Assembly: GCF_003315245.1 (NCBI RefSeq) | Contig: NZ_QNRT01000001.1 | Location: forward strand, 254,963 to 318,962 | Length of the DNA: 64,000 nt | Reading direction: 5' to 3' | Source of the DNA: Arenicella xantha | Lineage (GTDB): Bacteria > Pseudomonadota > Gammaproteobacteria > Arenicellales > Arenicellaceae | Shown: piece by piece, positions 11,309 to 20,627 of the stretch | Layout of the letters: each line of letters begins with the position of its first letter | How positions within the stretch are numbered: the first letter of the stretch is position 1 | Program-made: the position numbers and the translations under genes | The notes under the pieces: model-generated | What the model was told of the DNA's origin: nothing | Databases searched by the model: none | The model's input: the letters and a program-made list of their open reading frames with translations, nothing else

Positions 11309-11950
11309 ATGAGCAAACCGAGCATCTTATGTATGTTTTCTGGCGGCATAGACTCGACCGGAGTACTGCACACGCTAATCACTGATGAAGACTTTCACGA
11401 CCGCGCATTGATTGTGCACCACATCATTCTGCAGAATCGAGAAAATCGCGCTCAGGCGGAGATGGAGTCAGTACGCAAAATCATCGATTTTTATCAAGCA
11501 GAACATCCACATAGAGGCTTCACGTACACCGAGAGCGTATTCAATACCACCGGATTTGCACCGCTAAAAGCTAGCCGCTTCCCTTTCGATATGGATGTGT
11601 GCGCATTCACCGCCGGCAATATCAGCGTGGCTCGCAAAGACGTTCGACAAGTAGCCATGGGCCGCACTAAGACCGATGTCGAATCAGGCGGTGATAATTT
11701 TCAAAAGAGAATGGAGCGCGCTCAAACTATTTATCGCGCGGTATATTCATTGGAGCCAGAGACTATTCCAGAGTATATCTTCCCAGTCATCAATATGACC
11801 AAAGAAGAGATTTGGGACAGCCTACCTGAGCCGGTTCAAAGCGCGACATGGTACTGTCGGCATCCACAATATCGCCCAGGTGGGCATGCTGAGCCATGCA
11901 AGAAATGCCCCACCTGCAAGGAAGTCAGCGAGTTTATAGCGCATGGCTGA
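11309..11950 (+). CDS. QueC-like PP-loop ATPase
   Basis: A 213-residue protein of the PP-loop (adenine nucleotide alpha-hydrolase) superfamily, closest to QueC, the 7-cyano-7-deazaguanine synthase. The PP-loop is SGGIDSTG (residues 11-18). A four-Cys zinc site sits at C183, C197, C200 and C203 (CRHP, then PCKKCPTC). The middle diverges from ordinary QueC and from the second copy at 16057: it has FPFDMDVCAFTAGNISVARK in place of the usual PGRN...LSLA motif, so a changed substrate is likely. It overlaps the following methyltransferase gene by eight bases. QueC-like proteins are also seen in phage-defence and conjugation systems. Confidence 0.8.
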   Translation: MSKPSILCMFSGGIDSTGVLHTLITDEDFHDRALIVHHIILQNRENRAQAEMESVRKIIDFYQAEHPHRGFTYTESVFNTTGFAPLKASRFPFDMDVCAFTAGNISVARKDVRQVAMGRTKTDVESGGDNFQKRMERAQTIYRAVYSLEPETIPEYIFPVINMTKEEIWDSLPEPVQSATWYCRHPQYRPGGHAEPCKKCPTCKEVSEFIAHG

Positions 11951-12686
11951 AAAATATTACGCGGAGATTTTTAAACAAAACGGCGCATCCTACCACCAAG
12001 CGATGCAACTCCAAACTAACGCTCGTGATCAAGAATTTCTCGCCGCTTTATCATATCTCGAGCTAAAAAAGGGCGATAACATTCTTGATGTTCCGGCTGG
12101 TGGCGGATATTTAAAAGCGTATCTCCCTGACGGGCTCGATTACTTGGGCTATGATTTCGCAGGCGCATTCGGGCATGGTCAAACGAATGTGACTACCTGC
12201 GATGAAACCCTAATCGAACTGCCGAATAACAGTGTCGACAACATAATCTGCCTAGCAGCACTACACCACGTTGAGGACCGGCTTGGATTTTATCAAGAGC
12301 TAAAACGTATATTAAAACCAGAAGGGAAATTGATCATCGGTGATATTTTACAACATAGCCCGCAGGACGCCTTCTTAAACAACTTTGTTGACCAGTGGAA
12401 TAGCCTAGGCCATCAAGGCGACTTTCTTCAGCCACAACGAGAACAACAAGAACTCGTTAGCGTCGGCTTCAGAAGTGAATTAACTCAAGAAAATTTTGAT
12501 TGGATCTTCAGCAACCGAGAACAGGCCAGAGACTATTTTCGGCTGCTCTTTAGTATGGACAAACACCCTGAGGATAGTGCGATAGATGACGCAATGGAAA
12601 AATTGGGGACAAAAAGCACCAGCACACATTTTTATGTGAACTGGTGCTTAGGGTTTATCAGCGCAACGATAAGCAGAAACGACTAG
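11943..12686 (+). CDS. Class I SAM-dependent methyltransferase
   Basis: A 247-residue methyltransferase of the class I fold. Motif I is ILDVPAGGGYL (residues 47-57), and the NIICLAALHHVEDR stretch with LKRILKPEGKLIIGDIL is the usual Methyltransf_11 core. The C-terminal ~90 residues are a helical substrate cap. The eight-base overlap with the QueC-like gene says the two are co-translated and may act on the same molecule. Acceptor unknown. Its end faces the giant beta-helix gene 21 bases away. Confidence 0.85.
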   Translation: MAEKYYAEIFKQNGASYHQAMQLQTNARDQEFLAALSYLELKKGDNILDVPAGGGYLKAYLPDGLDYLGYDFAGAFGHGQTNVTTCDETLIELPNNSVDNIICLAALHHVEDRLGFYQELKRILKPEGKLIIGDILQHSPQDAFLNNFVDQWNSLGHQGDFLQPQREQQELVSVGFRSELTQENFDWIFSNREQARDYFRLLFSMDKHPEDSAIDDAMEKLGTKSTSTHFYVNWCLGFISATISRND

Positions 12687-12707
12687 ATCACTTCCTAGAC
12701 ACTAACT

Positions 12708-15700
12708 CTATAAGCAAAACACGACTGCTTTACCACCTGCAATCGGTACGACAAAGCAAGCGTCCTTCACATACTCAATTGAGCCAATATCACAGGCACC
12801 GTCATTGCGATAAAAATCTCGTTGATCACGAGGCAAATCAAACTCGCCTCCACAAAGGAACTGTTGGCCTGCATCAATAGCCGGACTATTGTTGACTAAG
12901 TTGTGTGTAAAGGTTCGCCCGCCGTTATTACGCAGCGGACCAATAATGGACCTCAATGCCGTTGCATCAGGGTTAGGCGCACCACCGGAAACATCGCTAG
13001 TCGCTACAAAGCTCGTATCAGAATTATAAAAGCCAGCCGTACTACTCGACGTGAATACCGAGTCAACATATGTGTTACTGGCTTCCCCCAAAATACTACC
13101 GAAGAACACCGTGTTAGCGAAGTCATTCACCGATACCTCTTTACCGACCAGCCCACTTCGGTTGCCCGAAACAATACTATTCAGCACGAAAAGCTCGCCG
13201 CCATTAACGACATTAACACCACCACCTTGGCTCATGGCGTAATTGTTTGAAATAGTGGAATTATAGCTGGCCATTTCACCTCCTTGAGTAACATAGACTC
13301 CCCCACCATTATCTGCACGATTACCAGATATCGTACTGTTACGCACAGAGGCGATAGCTGCAGAACTCAGCGCGATACCACCGCCTTGCAGCCCAACTGT
13401 GCCGCTGAATGTGCCGACCGAGTTGCTTGAAATAGTAGATTTGTCAATAATAAGTCTACTAAAATATGCAGCACTTATTCCCGCGCCTTCCCCACCACTT
13501 GCACTATAACTAGTGCCTGTTAAATAGTTCGCCGACACCGTAGTGTTGGTAAGCGATGCGGTGGACTGATACGAAATGCGCAAACCTGCCCCTGCCTGGG
13601 TGGCGGTGTTATTCGACACCATCACATTACTGAGGGTTAATGCGCTCGCGTACACTGCAATACCACCACCAGCAAAACCGCTAGAACCATTAGATATAGT
13701 TAAATTACTCAGCTGTAAATCCGCATTGTAAGCTCGCATTACTTGAACCCCATCATTACCGCTAATACTTAGGGCACCCACTTTTTGACTTGGGCCTTGA
13801 ACACTCACAGCAGAGACTATTATCGGAAGCTCATCACCTAAGGTGATCATAGAACTGCCATTGGGTGGAAATACAGCGGAATCAAATCGAATATTAGTCA
13901 GGTCGTAGGCTACGTCGCAGGTACTACCTGTACGAGGTATTTCGCCGCCCTCCCCACCTTCCCCGCCAATAATACTGGTACTGATCAACGCATCTCTGAG
14001 CGTACAGGCGCTGATAGCATCGCTTATCTCATCACCAGTGTTATCGACCAACAGCGTTCCAATCGAGACATCAATCGAGCCAATATCGCATGCCCCCGAA
14101 GAATGAGCCTGGCCCCGCTGATCAAAACCAGAAACCGGGCTAGCCCCGCATACGGTGACATCGCCAGCGTTTAACAATGGGCTGCCAAACAGAGGCATAT
14201 AAAATGATTGATATACAGGGTATACCGTCTGTGTTGCGCGCCCATAATTCACGTAGCTCGTATTCACGCTTGCACCAGCAATAGCGAACTCACCACCATC
14301 GTTCGCGGATTTAACCTTTAGTCGGCTTAATTTAGCGTCTCCATCGGCAACGCCATCGCAACTCTCATCGGAGAAGAAATTATTGATATTTTGGCTAAGA
14401 CTTGATCCAGCTTCAAAGTCACATAAACTGAGTTCACCGCCGTAAGAATTACCCAGCACGCCGCCTATACTAGCGAAATTTGACTTAGAAATAACTGTAT
14501 TGATCAGCGCGACTGAAGAGTTATCGTAGGCGAAGATTCCCTCTGCTTTCGCGTCGGGACCAAATTCTCCGCCTTCACCACCAACGATCGTGCTGTTTAC
14601 AATTGACAGGCTACTTCCACCAAGCAATATAGCTCCGCCATAAAGCGCAACTGAGTTTGCTCGAACTAGATTCCCAGACACCGTACTGTTACTGATCGTA
14701 TTACTGGAATTAATGGACGCCGATAAGGCAATTGCAGCACCACCTACCAACGAAGGACTACCATATTCACCACCAATAAAGTTGTCTGAGAGAGCCGTCT
14801 TGTCCATCGAAAAAGTAGTACTTCCATTCACGTCAATGGCGCCACCTTGCTCATACGCTTCATTAGCAGTAAAGTTTGAATCAGAAATAACTAACGGACC
14901 TGGACCCGCTATAATCGCACCGCCGTTTGTTCCTGCTCGATTACGACTGAAATAGCTCGATGCAATTGTGGTATCCGTAACACTGCTGATTGCACCACCT
15001 GAATATCCCGCTGTATTTCGACGAATATCCGAGCCCGAGATCGACATACCCAACGTCCCGGTAGTGTGGATAGCGCCGCCGTGGTATGTAGCAGAGTTAC
15101 GTTTAACGGACGACTGAGTCACGGTTAAACTGGAGCCGCCAACCAAAGATATCGCACCGCCAATACCGGCCGAATTACGATAGAGATTTACATAATTCAG
15201 CTCAACGTGTGACCCGCTAGCCAAGATACCACCACCCGATTCAGGTGGGTCACTTGGATTAACTCGATTATCAGTCACCGAGCTATTATTGAGAGTCAAA
15301 CTTGCGTCTGTGACACGTATTCCAGCACCGCCACCATCGCCAGCTTGCAAAAGCCCTTCATCGAGCGCCAAATCATTAATCGTCACCACTGCTCCTGCGG
15401 CAATATCAATCAGCCTTTTCGCCGTCAACGTAGCAGTGTCTCGAGTGATGATAGAGTTGTTACCATTGATAGTAACCGCGCTGTTAATAAGTAAGCCTTC
15501 GGTACCAGGATTGTCCAATACAAAGCGAGCATTCGCGTACAACTCGATAGTGTCTGCACCACTACCGGCAACACAAAACCCTACCGCAGAATCCGTATTC
15601 GCAGAGGCAATAGCATCGTACAAGTTGCACTCGTCAATGGAGCCTGGCGCATCAACCGTGATAGTTGCCGCACGTAAATTTGTTGGAATTAGCGCCTGAC

Positions 15701-15749
15701 CGACGGCGAGAGCAATACAGCTTTTCTGGAAATTATTTAAGGGGGGCAT
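12708..15749 (-). CDS. Giant exported right-handed beta-helix protein (two CSLREA/choice-of-anchor Q modules)
   Basis: A 1013-residue exported protein with signal MPPLNNFQKSCIALAVGQALIPTNLRA. It consists of two successive modules. Each begins with a CSLREA-like segment (SIDECNLYDAIASAN; ACTLRDAL). Each continues with Asn/Ser/Gly-rich beta-helix coils (GGAI and GGGI repeats, NNSTVSGN-like). Each ends with a choice-of-anchor Q type segment (AGDVTVCGASPV...GACDIGSIDV; AGQQFLCGGEFDLPRDQRD...GACDIGSIEY). An internal duplication is the simplest reading. The last 16 residues, CFVVPIAGGKAVVFCL, form a distinctive tail. Probably a surface or secreted carbohydrate-binding or adhesin-like protein. It lies on the opposite strand between two plus-strand Que gene groups. 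Confidence 0.8.
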   Translation of the reverse strand: MPPLNNFQKSCIALAVGQALIPTNLRAATITVDAPGSIDECNLYDAIASANTDSAVGFCVAGSGADTIELYANARFVLDNPGTEGLLINSAVTINGNNSIITRDTATLTAKRLIDIAAGAVVTINDLALDEGLLQAGDGGGAGIRVTDASLTLNNSSVTDNRVNPSDPPESGGGILASGSHVELNYVNLYRNSAGIGGAISLVGGSSLTVTQSSVKRNSATYHGGAIHTTGTLGMSISGSDIRRNTAGYSGGAISSVTDTTIASSYFSRNRAGTNGGAIIAGPGPLVISDSNFTANEAYEQGGAIDVNGSTTFSMDKTALSDNFIGGEYGSPSLVGGAAIALSASINSSNTISNSTVSGNLVRANSVALYGGAILLGGSSLSIVNSTIVGGEGGEFGPDAKAEGIFAYDNSSVALINTVISKSNFASIGGVLGNSYGGELSLCDFEAGSSLSQNINNFFSDESCDGVADGDAKLSRLKVKSANDGGEFAIAGASVNTSYVNYGRATQTVYPVYQSFYMPLFGSPLLNAGDVTVCGASPVSGFDQRGQAHSSGACDIGSIDVSIGTLLVDNTGDEISDAISACTLRDALISTSIIGGEGGEGGEIPRTGSTCDVAYDLTNIRFDSAVFPPNGSSMITLGDELPIIVSAVSVQGPSQKVGALSISGNDGVQVMRAYNADLQLSNLTISNGSSGFAGGGIAVYASALTLSNVMVSNNTATQAGAGLRISYQSTASLTNTTVSANYLTGTSYSASGGEGAGISAAYFSRLIIDKSTISSNSVGTFSGTVGLQGGGIALSSAAIASVRNSTISGNRADNGGGVYVTQGGEMASYNSTISNNYAMSQGGGVNVVNGGELFVLNSIVSGNRSGLVGKEVSVNDFANTVFFGSILGEASNTYVDSVFTSSSTAGFYNSDTSFVATSDVSGGAPNPDATALRSIIGPLRNNGGRTFTHNLVNNSPAIDAGQQFLCGGEFDLPRDQRDFYRNDGACDIGSIEYVKDACFVVPIAGGKAVVFCL

Positions 15750-16056
15750 TTTTGTATCCGCTGCTTTTATTCTTAAATTTTATTTATATTATGACAATAA
15801 TTACCGAGTAGATAGACAGATTTGGCAGTTTTGTAGCAAATCAGCTTACGACTGCCTACTATTTTTGCTAGTTCAAGCGCGAAGATTACCAATCGATAAT
15901 GATTCGAGCAATGTCAGCCACGTTGACTCATCAAGCGATATGGTTAAAAATCGTCAGGCAAATGAAACAAATACTGGCTTTGGTCTACTACAGCACACAT
16001 ATTAGCCAGACCTAATTGAGACGCCGTCATAATAAATATAGGGTTGGTTATATTGA
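15750..16056. other. Intergenic, divergent promoter region
   Basis: 307 bases between the start of the beta-helix gene (minus) and queC (plus), so both promoters should lie here. It is AT-rich close to the beta-helix start. I looked for a preQ1 riboswitch ahead of queC and could not identify one. Confidence 0.4.
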
Positions 16057-16722
16057 ATGGATAATTCTGCAGTGACTGACGTCGCCGTTCTTGTTAGTGG
16101 CGGACTTGACAGCAGCGTTCTTGCCGTTCATTTAAGCGATTCGAACTACCATGTCTACCCGATTTACATACAGCACGGTCTCTACTGGGAAGCCACCGAA
16201 CGTGACCATCTAACACGATTTCTATGCGCGGTTGCACGACCTAATATCGCCGAACTAAAAATTCTTGAGCTTCCAGTGACTGATATGTACGAGTCACACT
16301 GGAGCGTTTCTGGCAATAATGTGCCTGACGAGAACACACAAGATGATGCGGTTTTCCTGCCTGGTCGAAATCTACTATTGTTGGCAAAAGCCAGCGTCTG
16401 GTGCTCTTTAACTGGAATACGCACAATTGCTCTTGCGCCCTTGTCCGGAAACCCTTTTGCGGATAACTCCAATGCGTTTTATCGAGCAATCGAGCAATCC
16501 ATACAAATTTCTTCAGGCCAGAACATGGACATAATCAGACCGTTCTCCAATATGAGCAAAGACCAAGTGTTGCAGCTTGGGGGCAAGCTTCCGCTACATT
16601 TAACGTTTTCCTGTATCAGGCCACATAAAGGGTTACACTGTGGTCGGTGTAATAAATGCGCAGAGCGAAAGTTGGCGTACCACCGGCTTGGCATTGAAGA
16701 TGCCACACCTTATGCCACTTGA
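16057..16722 (+). CDS. queC: 7-cyano-7-deazaguanine synthase (QueC)
   Basis: A 221-residue QueC of ordinary length. The PP-loop is SGGLDSS (residues 14-20), FLPGRNLLLLAKAS gives the family core motif, and the zinc Cys are C186, C195, C198 and C201 (CIRP, HCGRCNKC). QueC converts 7-carboxy-7-deazaguanine to preQ0 with ammonia and ATP. It heads a plus-strand series queC-queD-adenylating enzyme-sulfotransferase-methyltransferase with short gaps. No queE or folE is in the window, so it either draws intermediates from elsewhere in the genome or has been recruited to a dedicated pathway. Confidence 0.88.
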   Translation: MDNSAVTDVAVLVSGGLDSSVLAVHLSDSNYHVYPIYIQHGLYWEATERDHLTRFLCAVARPNIAELKILELPVTDMYESHWSVSGNNVPDENTQDDAVFLPGRNLLLLAKASVWCSLTGIRTIALAPLSGNPFADNSNAFYRAIEQSIQISSGQNMDIIRPFSNMSKDQVLQLGGKLPLHLTFSCIRPHKGLHCGRCNKCAERKLAYHRLGIEDATPYAT

Positions 16723-16757
16723 ACTAAACTGAAATTATTCAATAAATAATAAAGTGT

Positions 16758-17159
16758 ATGTATCAAATTCTGAAATCAATCTCCTTTTGCTACGGCCACC
16801 GCTTACTTAAGTATCAGGGCCCCTGCGCAAACCTGCATGGTCATAACGCCAGAGCAGAAATAACGCTCGCGAGCGAACAACTAGACGAACGCGGCATGGT
16901 GATGGATTTCGGCGATATCAAATCAGTAATCAAAACCTGGATCGATGACAACCTTGATCACACCATGCTGCTATGCAAAGACGATCCCCTTGTCGCCGTG
17001 CTGACCGACAATCAAGAAAAATTCTACTTAATGGACAAAAACCCGACCGCTGAGAATATCGCAGAGCTTATTTTCAACTATGCTGAACAACAGAATTTTC
17101 CAGTAGAGTCCGTCACACTTTGGGAGTCCGATACAAGCTTCGCTCGATTCTTGCGCTGA
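16758..17159 (+). CDS. queD: 6-carboxytetrahydropterin synthase (QueD/PTPS family)
   Basis: A 133-residue member of the 6-pyruvoyltetrahydropterin synthase family. Zinc ligands H14, H27 and H29 (YGHRL, NLHGH) and the catalytic Cys23 (GPCANLHGH) are present, as are D67-H68 in the LDHTM catalytic dyad and E123 in WESDTSFARF. QueD makes 6-carboxy-5,6,7,8-tetrahydropterin from dihydroneopterin triphosphate, one step before QueE. It lies 35 bases after queC and 15 bases before the adenylating enzyme, so one operon is likely. Confidence 0.88.
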   Translation: MYQILKSISFCYGHRLLKYQGPCANLHGHNARAEITLASEQLDERGMVMDFGDIKSVIKTWIDDNLDHTMLLCKDDPLVAVLTDNQEKFYLMDKNPTAENIAELIFNYAEQQNFPVESVTLWESDTSFARFLR

Positions 17160-17174
17160 GGCGTGTTTGACGCT

Positions 17175-18575
17175 ATGTCCTACGCAGAATATCAGCGTTC
17201 AGAATTGCGCAAATGGAAGTTATGGCCTAAACATCAACACTTAACTCAGTTTTCGACCCTGCTAGAAAACGAGTTTATCCATCACCACACAAGACGAAAC
17301 AACCTCAATAATAGACTGGCTGAGCTAGTACGGTATTGCGCCACTACCGTGCCCTACTATCGCGCGGCCTTTGCACAACACGACATTGACGTTCAATCGT
17401 TCAGCGGAATGGATAACCTGAAAATTCTGCCAATAATCGACCGAGCAACCATTAAGGACAACTCCGACCAATTACAGTCAACCCAGCTTCCGGTTGACCA
17501 GTCACTCTATGGCTTCGCAAGCACCTCAGGGAGCACGGGGCAACCGATTAAGGTGCTACACACCGATCTAAGCATCATGTGGTTCAGCATCTTAAAACAA
17601 CGCGAATACCGCAGTTGGGGCTTTAACCCCGCGCACGCCATGGCCGTTGTTCGCCCAGCGGTCGACTTACCCAGACCAAGCGGTGAGTTAATCAACGCTA
17701 AATCGTCGTTCACACTTGGAGGCTGGCAATATGTTGACCGCTACTTTCAGACTGGCGATATGGTTATGTTGCCTGATACCAGCGGTACCGACTACATCGT
17801 GGAATGGCTACAAGGCCAATCTGCAAGCTATATAATGGCCATGGCCGCGGTTCTCGAACAAATTGCACTAGGCTTTACTAACACCGAGCACCGTTCCAAA
17901 TTAGTTAGCGCAGTGTCAATTTCGCAGCAACTCACAAACGGAATGCGCAGCCTTGTGGAACAACATGTAGCGCCATCAGTACACCAAAACTATGGTTTAA
18001 ATGAAATCGGCTTAGTGGCCATGCAGTGCCCCGAAAGTGGTCAATATCATGTGCATAACGAAAACTGCTTAATCGAAATTGTCGATTCAAACGGCGAACC
18101 CTGCGAACCGGGCAAGCCTGGCAAACTGCTGGTCACGGCATTACAAAACCTCGCCATGCCATTGTTGCGCTACGATACCGACGATCTTGCGGAATACCCC
18201 AGCGAACAATGTCCGTGCGGCCGATCGATGCAAAGCTTTATGAATCTACAAGGCCGTTACCGACGAACCGCCCACCTGCCAGCTGGCACTTGGGATTACT
18301 GGGATGGGTTACTAAGAGTTTTCGGTCAAGCTTCGGCAGAAGAAATGAGCACGATTAAGCAATATCAGTTACATCAGTTAGCGGCCGATAATTTCAGTCT
18401 TAAGTTGAAAGTTGACGGCACAATCAGCCAAACACTAAAGACTAAAATTCACCAAAAATGGCGTGCTGTTGCAAAAGGCAAACCCGCAAAATTAACAATT
18501 CTAGAGTTGGACAAGATTGAGCAGCCCGGCAAAAAATTTCAGAATTTCATTTCTGACGTCACACCACAGGACTGA
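17175..18575 (+). CDS. PaaK/CapK-type adenylate-forming enzyme
   Basis: A 466-residue adenylating enzyme of the phenylacetate-CoA ligase (PaaK/CapK) type. The ATP motif FASTSGSTGQPIKVLHTD lies near residues 115-132, NYGLNEIG gives the A5-like motif, and LLRYDTDDLAEY gives the adenylate-binding Asp. CPCGR nearby is the short Cys site common in this family. It should activate a carboxylic acid as an acyl-AMP. Within a queC/queD set the carboxylate might be 7-carboxy-7-deazaguanine or a partner acid; that is inference. An upstream GTG (17163) is an alternative start. The neighbouring genes face the same way with gaps of 15 and 59 bases. Confidence 0.8.
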   Translation: MSYAEYQRSELRKWKLWPKHQHLTQFSTLLENEFIHHHTRRNNLNNRLAELVRYCATTVPYYRAAFAQHDIDVQSFSGMDNLKILPIIDRATIKDNSDQLQSTQLPVDQSLYGFASTSGSTGQPIKVLHTDLSIMWFSILKQREYRSWGFNPAHAMAVVRPAVDLPRPSGELINAKSSFTLGGWQYVDRYFQTGDMVMLPDTSGTDYIVEWLQGQSASYIMAMAAVLEQIALGFTNTEHRSKLVSAVSISQQLTNGMRSLVEQHVAPSVHQNYGLNEIGLVAMQCPESGQYHVHNENCLIEIVDSNGEPCEPGKPGKLLVTALQNLAMPLLRYDTDDLAEYPSEQCPCGRSMQSFMNLQGRYRRTAHLPAGTWDYWDGLLRVFGQASAEEMSTIKQYQLHQLAADNFSLKLKVDGTISQTLKTKIHQKWRAVAKGKPAKLTILELDKIEQPGKKFQNFISDVTPQD

Positions 18576-18634
18576 GTCAAAGTGAGTTTTCACACACAAC
18601 AACATGCCTTAAGTGACACAGGAGTAGCATTAAC

Positions 18635-19522
18635 GTGACGATGCCAAACTTCTTGATTGTTGGCGCCGTTAAAGCCGGCACAACATCGCTGTATCACTAC
18701 CTAAGCCAACATCCTGACATCTTTCTGCCTAACCAAAAAGAGCCGCATCATTTCGCTCCGACCAAATGGTGCGGATACCCTGCCATGGCGCTAGACGACT
18801 ATGAAACGCTTTTTGAAAAAACAGATACTTATACTGCCCGAGGCGAAGCGTCGACTGGCTATTTGTACTACCCCGAATCGCCAAACCTTATTCACCAAGC
18901 CCTACCCGATTGCAAGATTGTGGTAATTTTACGAGACCCCACTGTGCGGGCTTATTCCGGTTATATGCATGAAGTACGGGAAGGCTTAGAGCAGCACAGC
19001 TTTGAACAGGCATTAGCTCAGGAACAACAAGCCACTCGCTTTGTCCGTGGCGGCGAATTCAGCTTCAACTATCTAAAACAGGGCCTCGTTTGCGACAACA
19101 TACAACGCTACATCGAATTGTTCGGCACGCACCAAGTTCATGTCTGTTGGTTTGATGACTTAGTTAATAAACCGCACACATTGATGCAGGCGCTATTTGA
19201 TTTTCTGAACGTTGACGAGCACTTTCAAGGTGAATGGGACTATCGTTACAACCCATCTGGCCAGCCAAAGTTCAAAGCCCTACATACACTCATTGATGGG
19301 GAAGGCACTGTCGCCAACTGGCTACGCGCACGCTTTAGCGGTAACCGAAAAAGCCATAGGCAAGCCTCACTATGGCACAGAGTCAGAGATTGGAACCTAG
19401 CATCTGGCGAGCGGCCGACACTTGACCCAAGCACTGAACGCTTGTTACGCAGCTATTTTCAAAGCGAAGTCCGAAACTTAGAAGCCCTCCTTAATAGAGA
19501 CCTTTCTGAATGGCTAAATTGA
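18635..19522 (+). CDS. PAPS-dependent sulfotransferase
   Basis: A 295-residue sulfotransferase of the heparan-sulfate/NodH-like group. The 5'-phosphosulfate-binding loop is VGAVKAGTTSLYHYL (residues 8-22) and the 3'-phosphate site is VVILRDPTVRAYSGY. KEPHHF marks the expected catalytic/acceptor side. It transfers sulfate from PAPS to a hydroxyl or amine on a small molecule or glycan. The GTG at 18635 is preferred (AGGAG 10 bases upstream); ATG at 18641 is the alternative. It sits between the adenylating enzyme and a methyltransferase, hinting at tailoring of a shared product. Confidence 0.85.
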   Translation: MTMPNFLIVGAVKAGTTSLYHYLSQHPDIFLPNQKEPHHFAPTKWCGYPAMALDDYETLFEKTDTYTARGEASTGYLYYPESPNLIHQALPDCKIVVILRDPTVRAYSGYMHEVREGLEQHSFEQALAQEQQATRFVRGGEFSFNYLKQGLVCDNIQRYIELFGTHQVHVCWFDDLVNKPHTLMQALFDFLNVDEHFQGEWDYRYNPSGQPKFKALHTLIDGEGTVANWLRARFSGNRKSHRQASLWHRVRDWNLASGERPTLDPSTERLLRSYFQSEVRNLEALLNRDLSEWLN

Positions 19523-19565
19523 GAGTTCAGCATAGTCACAATAAAACCAACCAGCTAAGCAACAC

Positions 19566-20627
19566 ATGAAGACATCATTAATCAATTCTATCCAATGCCC
19601 AAAATGTGAATCGATGCTGACCGTAGATGAAGCGGCCACCAAGCCGGTTTATCGAGAGTCCAACAATGAGCTGCATGAGGGCATACTGGTGTGCACTAGC
19701 TGTGCTAAGCAATACCCCGTCATTTGTGGCATCGCCATATTGCTGGCTAATCCTAATTCATGGTTGCGCTCGAACTACAGTTATATTGTTGAAGGCGCAT
19801 TCAACAGCGGCGGCATAAGTGAACCATTAAGGAAGTACTTAGATCAGCATGGCTGGCGAATGTCCGCCTCACCGGCTAATAATTACTACGAGTTACCACG
19901 CTGGGTAGATATATTTCTTGCTACACACTACGATCCCGTACCCGCCGGGTCCGATGACAATTCAGAACTTGGCGCACTATTAGCAAAGCAACCCTCAGTG
20001 TTTGAATATGTTGCCAACACACTTAAGCGCCTCCAGCCCGAAGGTATCAAACGTGCGCTCGACGTTGGTGCAAATGTCGGAGGCATGACATGGCGATTAG
20101 CCTCGCAAGCTGAGTCAGTCTTGGCGATTGACACAGCATTCAATCCATTACTTGCTGCGCGCAAACTTCAATTAGGTCTACCCAGCGCAAAAACAACGGT
20201 GCGCCGATATATCGATGGTCTGCGGCATGAAGAAATTACCGTCGGTCCTTTTAACACCAACGTCGAGTTTCTGGTCGCTTCGTTATTTGAACTGCCCGTG
20301 GCCGGAAAATTTGATGTTATTACCGCGCTCAACGTTATTGATGTCGTGCCAGACCCAGAAGCATTTTTGGACGTGTTGATTGATCGCTTAGAACCCGGTG
20401 GGCTACTAATACTCACGTCACCCTACTCTTGGGGGTCAGACGATGTTCCAATTGATAACTGGATTGGAGATGCCGATACGCCATCCAATGAAGCCGTTAA
20501 CAGGCTGCTAATCGACAAAAAGTTGAGCATTCAAGACGAGACTGATTTCGTACCTTGGATACTACGGGAGCACTCCAGATGGTATCGGGTGTTTCATAAT
20601 CATTGCGTGATCGCGAGAAAGGGATAG
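19566..20627 (+). CDS. Methyltransferase with N-terminal Trm112-like zinc ribbon
   Basis: A 353-residue protein in two parts. Residues 9-60 form a Trm112p-like zinc ribbon (CPKCESM, then CTSCAKQYPV, then a GIAILL strand). Residues ~160-353 are a class I methyltransferase with motif I RALDVGANVGGMTWRLA and motif II VLAIDTAFNPL, followed by KFDVITALNVIDVV and the LEPGGLLILTSPY segment. Fusions of a Trm112-like ribbon to a methyltransferase occur in secondary-metabolite clusters. It is the last plus-strand gene of the Que-linked set. Acceptor unknown. Confidence 0.8.
   Translation: MKTSLINSIQCPKCESMLTVDEAATKPVYRESNNELHEGILVCTSCAKQYPVICGIAILLANPNSWLRSNYSYIVEGAFNSGGISEPLRKYLDQHGWRMSASPANNYYELPRWVDIFLATHYDPVPAGSDDNSELGALLAKQPSVFEYVANTLKRLQPEGIKRALDVGANVGGMTWRLASQAESVLAIDTAFNPLLAARKLQLGLPSAKTTVRRYIDGLRHEEITVGPFNTNVEFLVASLFELPVAGKFDVITALNVIDVVPDPEAFLDVLIDRLEPGGLLILTSPYSWGSDDVPIDNWIGDADTPSNEAVNRLLIDKKLSIQDETDFVPWILREHSRWYRVFHNHCVIARKG

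Follow-up and report, generated by a model that had tools for sequence, protein, structure and literature searches.

A five-gene cassette in Arenicella xantha and a distant relative is built on a non-canonical clade of the QueC family

Natural-product clusters of the toyocamycin/tubercidin type, derived from preQ0, carry their own QueE and often FolE beside QueD and QueC, and deazaguanylation reportedly occurs in type IV cyclic oligonucleotide-based antiphage signalling systems (CBASS). Here we describe a cassette of five genes within a 64,000-nucleotide stretch of the Arenicella xantha genome (contig NZ_QNRT01000001.1, positions 254,963 to 318,962; the whole stretch is hereafter the window), the first of which encodes a QueC-family protein that we call QueC2 (Table 1). 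The cassette resembles the preQ0 natural-product clusters in joining QueD and a QueC-family enzyme to tailoring genes, but differs from them in having neither QueE nor FolE, a non-canonical QueC and, as tailoring enzymes, a sulfotransferase, a PaaK/CapK-type ligase (CapK below) and an OvoM-like methyltransferase. ATP-dependent nitrile synthetases other than QueC exist (PMC13060819, excerpted text), and GATOR-GC covers the dpd islands, the excerpted text of that paper (PMC11888242) making no mention of a sulfotransferase. An initial annotation, made from the sequence alone, had named no described system with this combination of genes, and no description of the five-gene set was found in the open-licence papers searched.

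The cassette (16057-20627) runs on one strand throughout, with intergenic gaps of 35, 3, 59 and 43 bases. Gene calls follow the open reading frame (ORF) table of the window and families follow Pfam and NCBIfam scans; every gene listed in the initial annotation is present at its coordinates and on its strand. All five genes occur together again in a genome of the same class and another family (G144), with identities of 42-56% (QueC2 54.5%, QueD 56%, CapK 42%, sulfotransferase 52%, methyltransferase 50-51%). Their order is rearranged there: methyltransferase, QueC2, QueD and CapK are co-directional, and the sulfotransferase is encoded on the other strand, in an open frame that overlaps the last part of CapK. 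Because the set recurs in G144, the clustering of the five genes is more than chance. The QueC2 type was found in two of 369 class genomes (E 1e-35), the window's own and G144, both of which hold the cassette, and the cassette methyltransferase in the same two among 274 class genomes (E 1e-20). Since both searches converge on two genomes in which all five genes are kept, the view that these form one co-inherited unit, found in two genomes, is well supported. Conservation in relatives, on which the initial annotation had made its proposal depend, is thus seen in a distant genome, though all 17 same-genus genomes lack the QueC2 type: 16 of them return one weak match to the QueC2 query (24-29% identity, canonical type where aligned) and one returns none. 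No further relative of the methyltransferase beyond the window's own appeared in 398 sampled genomes of the phylum (E 1e-15), nor did a second cassette in the family of G144, represented by two genomes of which only G144 is positive. In G144, a protein beside the sulfotransferase (L105, 12368-13321) weakly matches the F420 ligase CofF (30 bits, cut-off 300) and has no counterpart among the ORFs of the window.

Table 1. Features of the window discussed in the text, the five cassette genes first.
Feature	Coordinates	Strand	Evidence or remark
QueC2, non-canonical QueC-family ATP-pyrophosphatase	16057..16722	+	PF06508 99 bits; SGGxDS; LPGRN; NPFxD; FSCx8CGRCNKC
QueD-type 6-carboxytetrahydropterin synthase	16758..17159	+	PF01242 115 bits; CxxxHGH motif (CANLHGH)
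PaaK/CapK-type adenylate-forming ligase	17163..18575	+	family scans; PaaK structures
Sulfotransferase of the 3′-phosphoadenosine 5′-phosphosulfate (PAPS) type	18635..19522	+	PF13469, PF00685
S-adenosylmethionine (SAM) methyltransferase; Trm112-like zinc domain at the N-terminus, catalytic part resembling OvoM/OvsM and the C-terminus of OvoA	19566..20627	+	
QC1, second, phage-type QueC-like protein	11309..11950	+	PF06508 39 bits, cut-off 22; outside cassette
MT1, SAM methyltransferase	11943..12686	+	8-base overlap with QC1; outside cassette
Choice-of-anchor-Q repeat protein, 1013 amino acids	12708..15749	-	between QC1-MT1 and cassette; not a cassette member

QueC2 has the SGGxDS PP-loop and the C(x)8CxxCxxC zinc site of QueC, and shares with canonical QueC the PGRN loop, K165 and the aromatic-x-Asp substrate loop. 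It differs in its low TIGR00364 score (69.5 bits, cut-off 150.3), in changed Y35, C134 and Y189, in a phenylalanine at Y131, in a YxxHWSxxG stretch that is invariant or nearly so in a 30-sequence family alignment, and in its phylogenetic position. A scan of a one-genome-per-species collection returned 109 relatives, of which 80 were kept; 60 of these belong to Planctomycetota and the others to ten further named phyla, apart from one that is unplaced. A quick tree sets the QueC2 clade apart from 12 canonical QueC sequences with support 100, and places the window and G144 proteins as sisters within it (96 in the Shimodaira-Hasegawa-like approximate likelihood ratio test). Canonical QueC (at least 230 bits) is also present in 15 of 20 QueC2 genomes tested, the two proteins being paralogues.

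Residues were compared in the numbering of E. coli QueC over 82 rows of the family alignment, which represent 81 loci; at each position one row is gapped. Y131 is replaced by phenylalanine in 81/81 rows, C134 and Y189 are retained in none, and Y35 is retained in one, in an alignment stretch that requires a one-residue gap; P97, N100, D133, K165 and the four zinc cysteines are kept in all 81 and R99 in 77. Every compared position is retained in the 12 canonical rows. The window's QueC2 has H, F and I at positions 35, 131 and 189 and keeps R99. According to the excerpted text of a 2026 study, E. coli QueC loses its function when Y35, R99, Y131 or Y189 is replaced by alanine (PMC13329287). The QueC2 clade has an altered preQ0-synthase signature, with three of these four residues changed, one of them only from Tyr to Phe. 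The clade is not described in that excerpted text, and it could fall inside one of the clusters of that study.

The AlphaFold model of the window's QueC2 (mean predicted local distance difference test 94.7) has Cap9 of type IV CBASS as its nearest solved fold, followed by QueC, and Cap9 is also its best sequence match in the PDB (36.6 bits, QueC 30.9); the two share RN and the aromatic-x-Asp pair. In Cap9, as the excerpted text of its description has it, a tyrosine stacks on the deazaguanine base and an aspartate reads the Watson-Crick edge (PMC13279940). QueC2 has an aromatic residue and an aspartate, F134 and D136, at these base-stacking and edge-reading positions. Since the Watson-Crick edge is common to deazaguanine and pterin, the site is compatible with either ring.

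The other cassette proteins fall into recognisable families. QueD scores 88.5 bits against TIGR03367, cut-off 89.25. The ligase passes the PF00501 cut-off (33.4 bits, cut-off 29.9), is closest to PaaK among structures and is predicted to be an AMP-binding, ATP-dependent member of the acyl-activating family; the nearest structure to the sulfotransferase is 3rnl, followed by heparan sulfotransferases. For the methyltransferase the nearest structures are OvsM, OvoA and OvoM, and its catalytic domain is related to the OvoM/OvsM 5-thio/selenohistidine N-methyltransferases (9bxh 59 bits; TIGR04345 85.5 bits). It differs from them in staying under the TIGR04345 cut-off of 170 and in its Trm112-like N-terminal stretch (NF038101 36.5 bits, cut-off 77), and the cassette has no OvoA sulfoxide synthase. 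The initial annotation had also stated that QueE and DpdA-type transferases are absent. For QueE this extends to the whole 64-kb window, where tblastn with three QueE, six short-chain dehydrogenase/reductase (SDR) and one FolE queries found no match; a DpdA or tRNA-guanine transglycosylase-type transferase with DpdB/DpdC, as in the dpd islands for 7-deazaguanine in DNA, went unseen among the 17 window proteins scanned with Pfam, which cover only part of the 64 kb.

In other genomes QueC2 usually has a QueD beside it. QueD lies on the QueC2 locus in 58/80 cases, some contigs ending too early to judge, and CxxxHGH is found in all 59 QueD sequences neighbouring QueC2, G144 included. This is the motif of PTPS-I, a class of the 6-pyruvoyltetrahydropterin synthase (PTPS) family (PMC5041015, excerpted text), and the predicted product of QueD therefore bears a carboxylate. 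An SDR stands beside QueC2/QueD in 12/80 loci, a count that excludes weak SDR-like matches after QueD in L020 (62 bits) and L024 (55 bits). Nine of the 12 are tight modules, their gaps ranging from 7 to 670 bases, and are spread over Planctomycetota, Nitrospirota, Acidobacteriota, Nitrospinota, Coatesiibacteriota, Chloroflexota and Omnitrophota. The five SDRs scanned (L071, L052, L091, L084 and L029, from four phyla) all have pteridine reductase as their best NCBIfam model, and those of L088, L090, L092, L094 and L096 share 50-62% identity with a query SDR. In one Chloroflexota locus (L091, 8800-11266) SDR, QueD, QueC2 and a FolE above its cut-off are co-directional, in a genome without detected QueE; no other QueC2 locus among those searched has FolE. 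In L018 a QueD above the TIGR03367 cut-off overlaps QueC2, again in a genome without detected QueE.

We give about an even chance to the cassette being a biosynthetic operon for a sulfated and methylated small molecule, with QueC2 acting most likely on a pterin. QueD, judging from its motif, would convert dihydroneopterin triphosphate supplied by the cell's FolE to 6-carboxytetrahydropterin. QueC2 would then adenylate the ring carboxylate, and attack by ammonia or an amine would give an amide or a conjugate; gene context makes the pterin itself, without a QueE step, its most likely substrate, and 7-carboxy-7-deazaguanine (CDG) from the genome's QueE a less likely one. The remaining assignments are guesses: the PaaK/CapK ligase might activate a further carboxylate so that it can be coupled, methylation by the OvoM-like enzyme might follow, perhaps at a nitrogen of a ring or an imidazole, and the sulfotransferase would add sulfate, the order of these later steps and the product being guessed likewise. 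A more specific version, which we hold tentatively, makes QueC2 a QueE-independent branch of QueC that turns the QueD product into a 6-carboxamide, a 6-nitrile or an amide conjugate of tetrahydropterin. A core of QueD, pteridine reductase and QueC2 (with FolE) would then be a pathway to an unknown reduced pterin in at least seven phyla, which the cassette would carry on to a sulfated, methylated conjugate.

The main competitor is the deazapurine metabolite favoured by the initial annotation, in which the cassette QueD boosts supply, chromosomal QueE makes CDG, QueC2 converts it to an amide, nitrile or conjugate, and tailoring follows. We regard this as possible, if somewhat doubtful. QueE is present in both cassette genomes, and the Cap9-like and QueC-like fold, with F134 and D136 at the deazaguanine-contact positions of Cap9 (PMC13279940, excerpted text), fits such a substrate, although the aspartate could also read a pterin edge. 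No QueE lies in the window, however, and none was recognised beside the G144 cassette. With the QueE of the window's genome as query, a match was found in 25 of 32 genomes; QueE went undetected in 5/8 genomes with a tight SDR module (that of L090 being omitted from the test) vs 2/24 others (Fisher p 0.005). Because relatives of QueC2 sit with a pteridine-reductase-like SDR, once with FolE, and QueE often goes undetected in their genomes, a pterin product appears at least as likely as a deazapurine, and we lean, not firmly, towards the pterin branch. Several observations weigh against that preference. The five scanned SDRs score 154-251 bits, under the NF006598 cut-off of 288, and neither cassette, in the window or in G144, has a recognised adjoining SDR or FolE. 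The QueE negatives come from a single query whose match to the TIGR04508 type is marginal (G342, E 2.9e-5), in genomes whose completeness is not given, and the 24 other genomes include that of L033, where QueE is present and an SDR lies on the other strand. QueE follows QueC2-QueD directly in two Gemmatales-type loci, L022 (383-2131) and L058 (10001-11774), where it is of the Cx14CxxC type (TIGR04508 333 bits in L022); this adjacency counts for the deazapurine product. Three genomes (G335, G347 and G348) have QueE matches and no canonical QueC was found in them, so that QueC2 may make preQ0 there, or these metagenome-assembled genomes may be gapped. The Y131F variant of QueC is partly active (PMC13329287, excerpted text). 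Finally, relatives of CapK, the sulfotransferase and the methyltransferase occur in 0/80 QueC2 loci (E 1e-4), and the cassette therefore rests on two genomes.

That QueC2 links deazaguanine or a pterin to a protein, as Cap9 does in type IV CBASS and as proposed for QatC, and so serves protein modification or defence, seems very unlikely to us. Cap9 is the best match of QueC2 in both sequence and fold, but QueC2 adjoins QueD instead of the Cap9 partners: no CD-NTase or Qat partner was seen among the window proteins scanned, and the other four cassette proteins lack the Met-Gly-Gly start, with its N-terminal glycine, of the CBASS target (motif from the excerpted text of PMC13279940). PADLOC labels QueC2 as QueC (72 bits) with a weak QatC match (18 bits) and the methyltransferase as mad2 (48 bits), and returns nothing for the other three; we set the defence-system reading of the cassette aside, these matches being generic. 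We know of no role for sulfotransferases or CapK ligases in CBASS or Qat-type systems. Similarly improbable is a loose cell-envelope cluster, with sulfotransferase, CapK and methyltransferase acting on a surface polysaccharide and QueC2 and QueD carried along as unrelated passengers. These three families are common in polysaccharide loci and the gene of a surface-type repeat protein adjoins the cassette, but the five genes stay together in another family despite their reshuffled order, and the 17 window proteins scanned include no glycosyltransferase.

Upstream of the cassette, QC1 and MT1 had been joined to the same system by the initial annotation. This part of the proposal we abandon: neither protein matches the G144 stretch, QC1 is present in one of 369 class genomes, the window's own (E 1e-15), and a gene on the opposite strand intervenes, so the two genes most likely lie outside the five-gene unit. 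QC1 and QueC2 give no mutual blastp match at E 1e-3, nor do MT1 and the cassette methyltransferase. In the phage collection QC1 has nine matches of 26-30% identity, all from mycobacteriophages except one from a Saccharomonospora phage.

A mobile origin of the region finds little in its favour. Phage origin was rejected, the window having no near DNA match in phages; in viral contigs, QueC2 has only two 19-residue matches over the zinc site, and the cassette methyltransferase, QC1 and CapK have no relative. We likewise discarded a plasmid origin, as QueC2 stays below 30% identity in tblastn (best 20 of 158 plasmid matches). QC1 has no plasmid match, and the methyltransferase matches 20 plasmid records at no more than 32% identity, the annotated ones being OvoA or general methyltransferases. 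Nor is the cassette a compositional island, its genes having a guanine-cytosine content of 46.5-48.4% vs 47.5% for the window. Comparison with relatives placed no insertion boundary: the response regulator on the right-hand side occurs in 10 of 21 genomes, counting that of the window, and in the stretches of four relatives the only window ORFs with a match are this regulator and its kinase. A scan for promoters and terminators gave counts within one standard deviation of shuffled sequences.

Queuosine genes are found elsewhere in the genome. A canonical QueC (PF06508 254 bits; TIGR00364 201.8 bits, above cut-off) adjoins a QueE of the 'gams' type (TIGR04349 346 bits, above cut-off), away from the window, which answers the question raised by the initial annotation of whether queE exists elsewhere. 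Its concern that the cassette might hold the only queC and queD copies is dispelled for QueC, and persists in part for QueD. Two further PTPS genes are present, one without CxxxHGH and the other with a variant spacing, and because neither has a clean motif the cassette QueD may also serve tRNA queuosine. The variant is a 289-residue PTPS-like protein (L102, 1429-2298) with CxxxxHGH, possibly the QueD of the genus. As 16 of the 17 congeners lack QueC2 yet return a queC match, the tRNA queuosine pathway appears to be independent of the cassette.

The cassette is real, is present in two genomes and is built on a non-canonical QueC clade, and from its gene content the product is probably an undescribed sulfated and methylated compound. 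The set is small enough for direct expression in E. coli. Homologues of QueC are routinely named preQ0 synthases, and many genomes may thus hold misannotated members of the QueC2 clade, which often accompanies the canonical enzyme. If QueC2 acts on 6-carboxytetrahydropterin, it would stand where pterin and deazapurine metabolism branch and would point to a reduced pterin not seen before.

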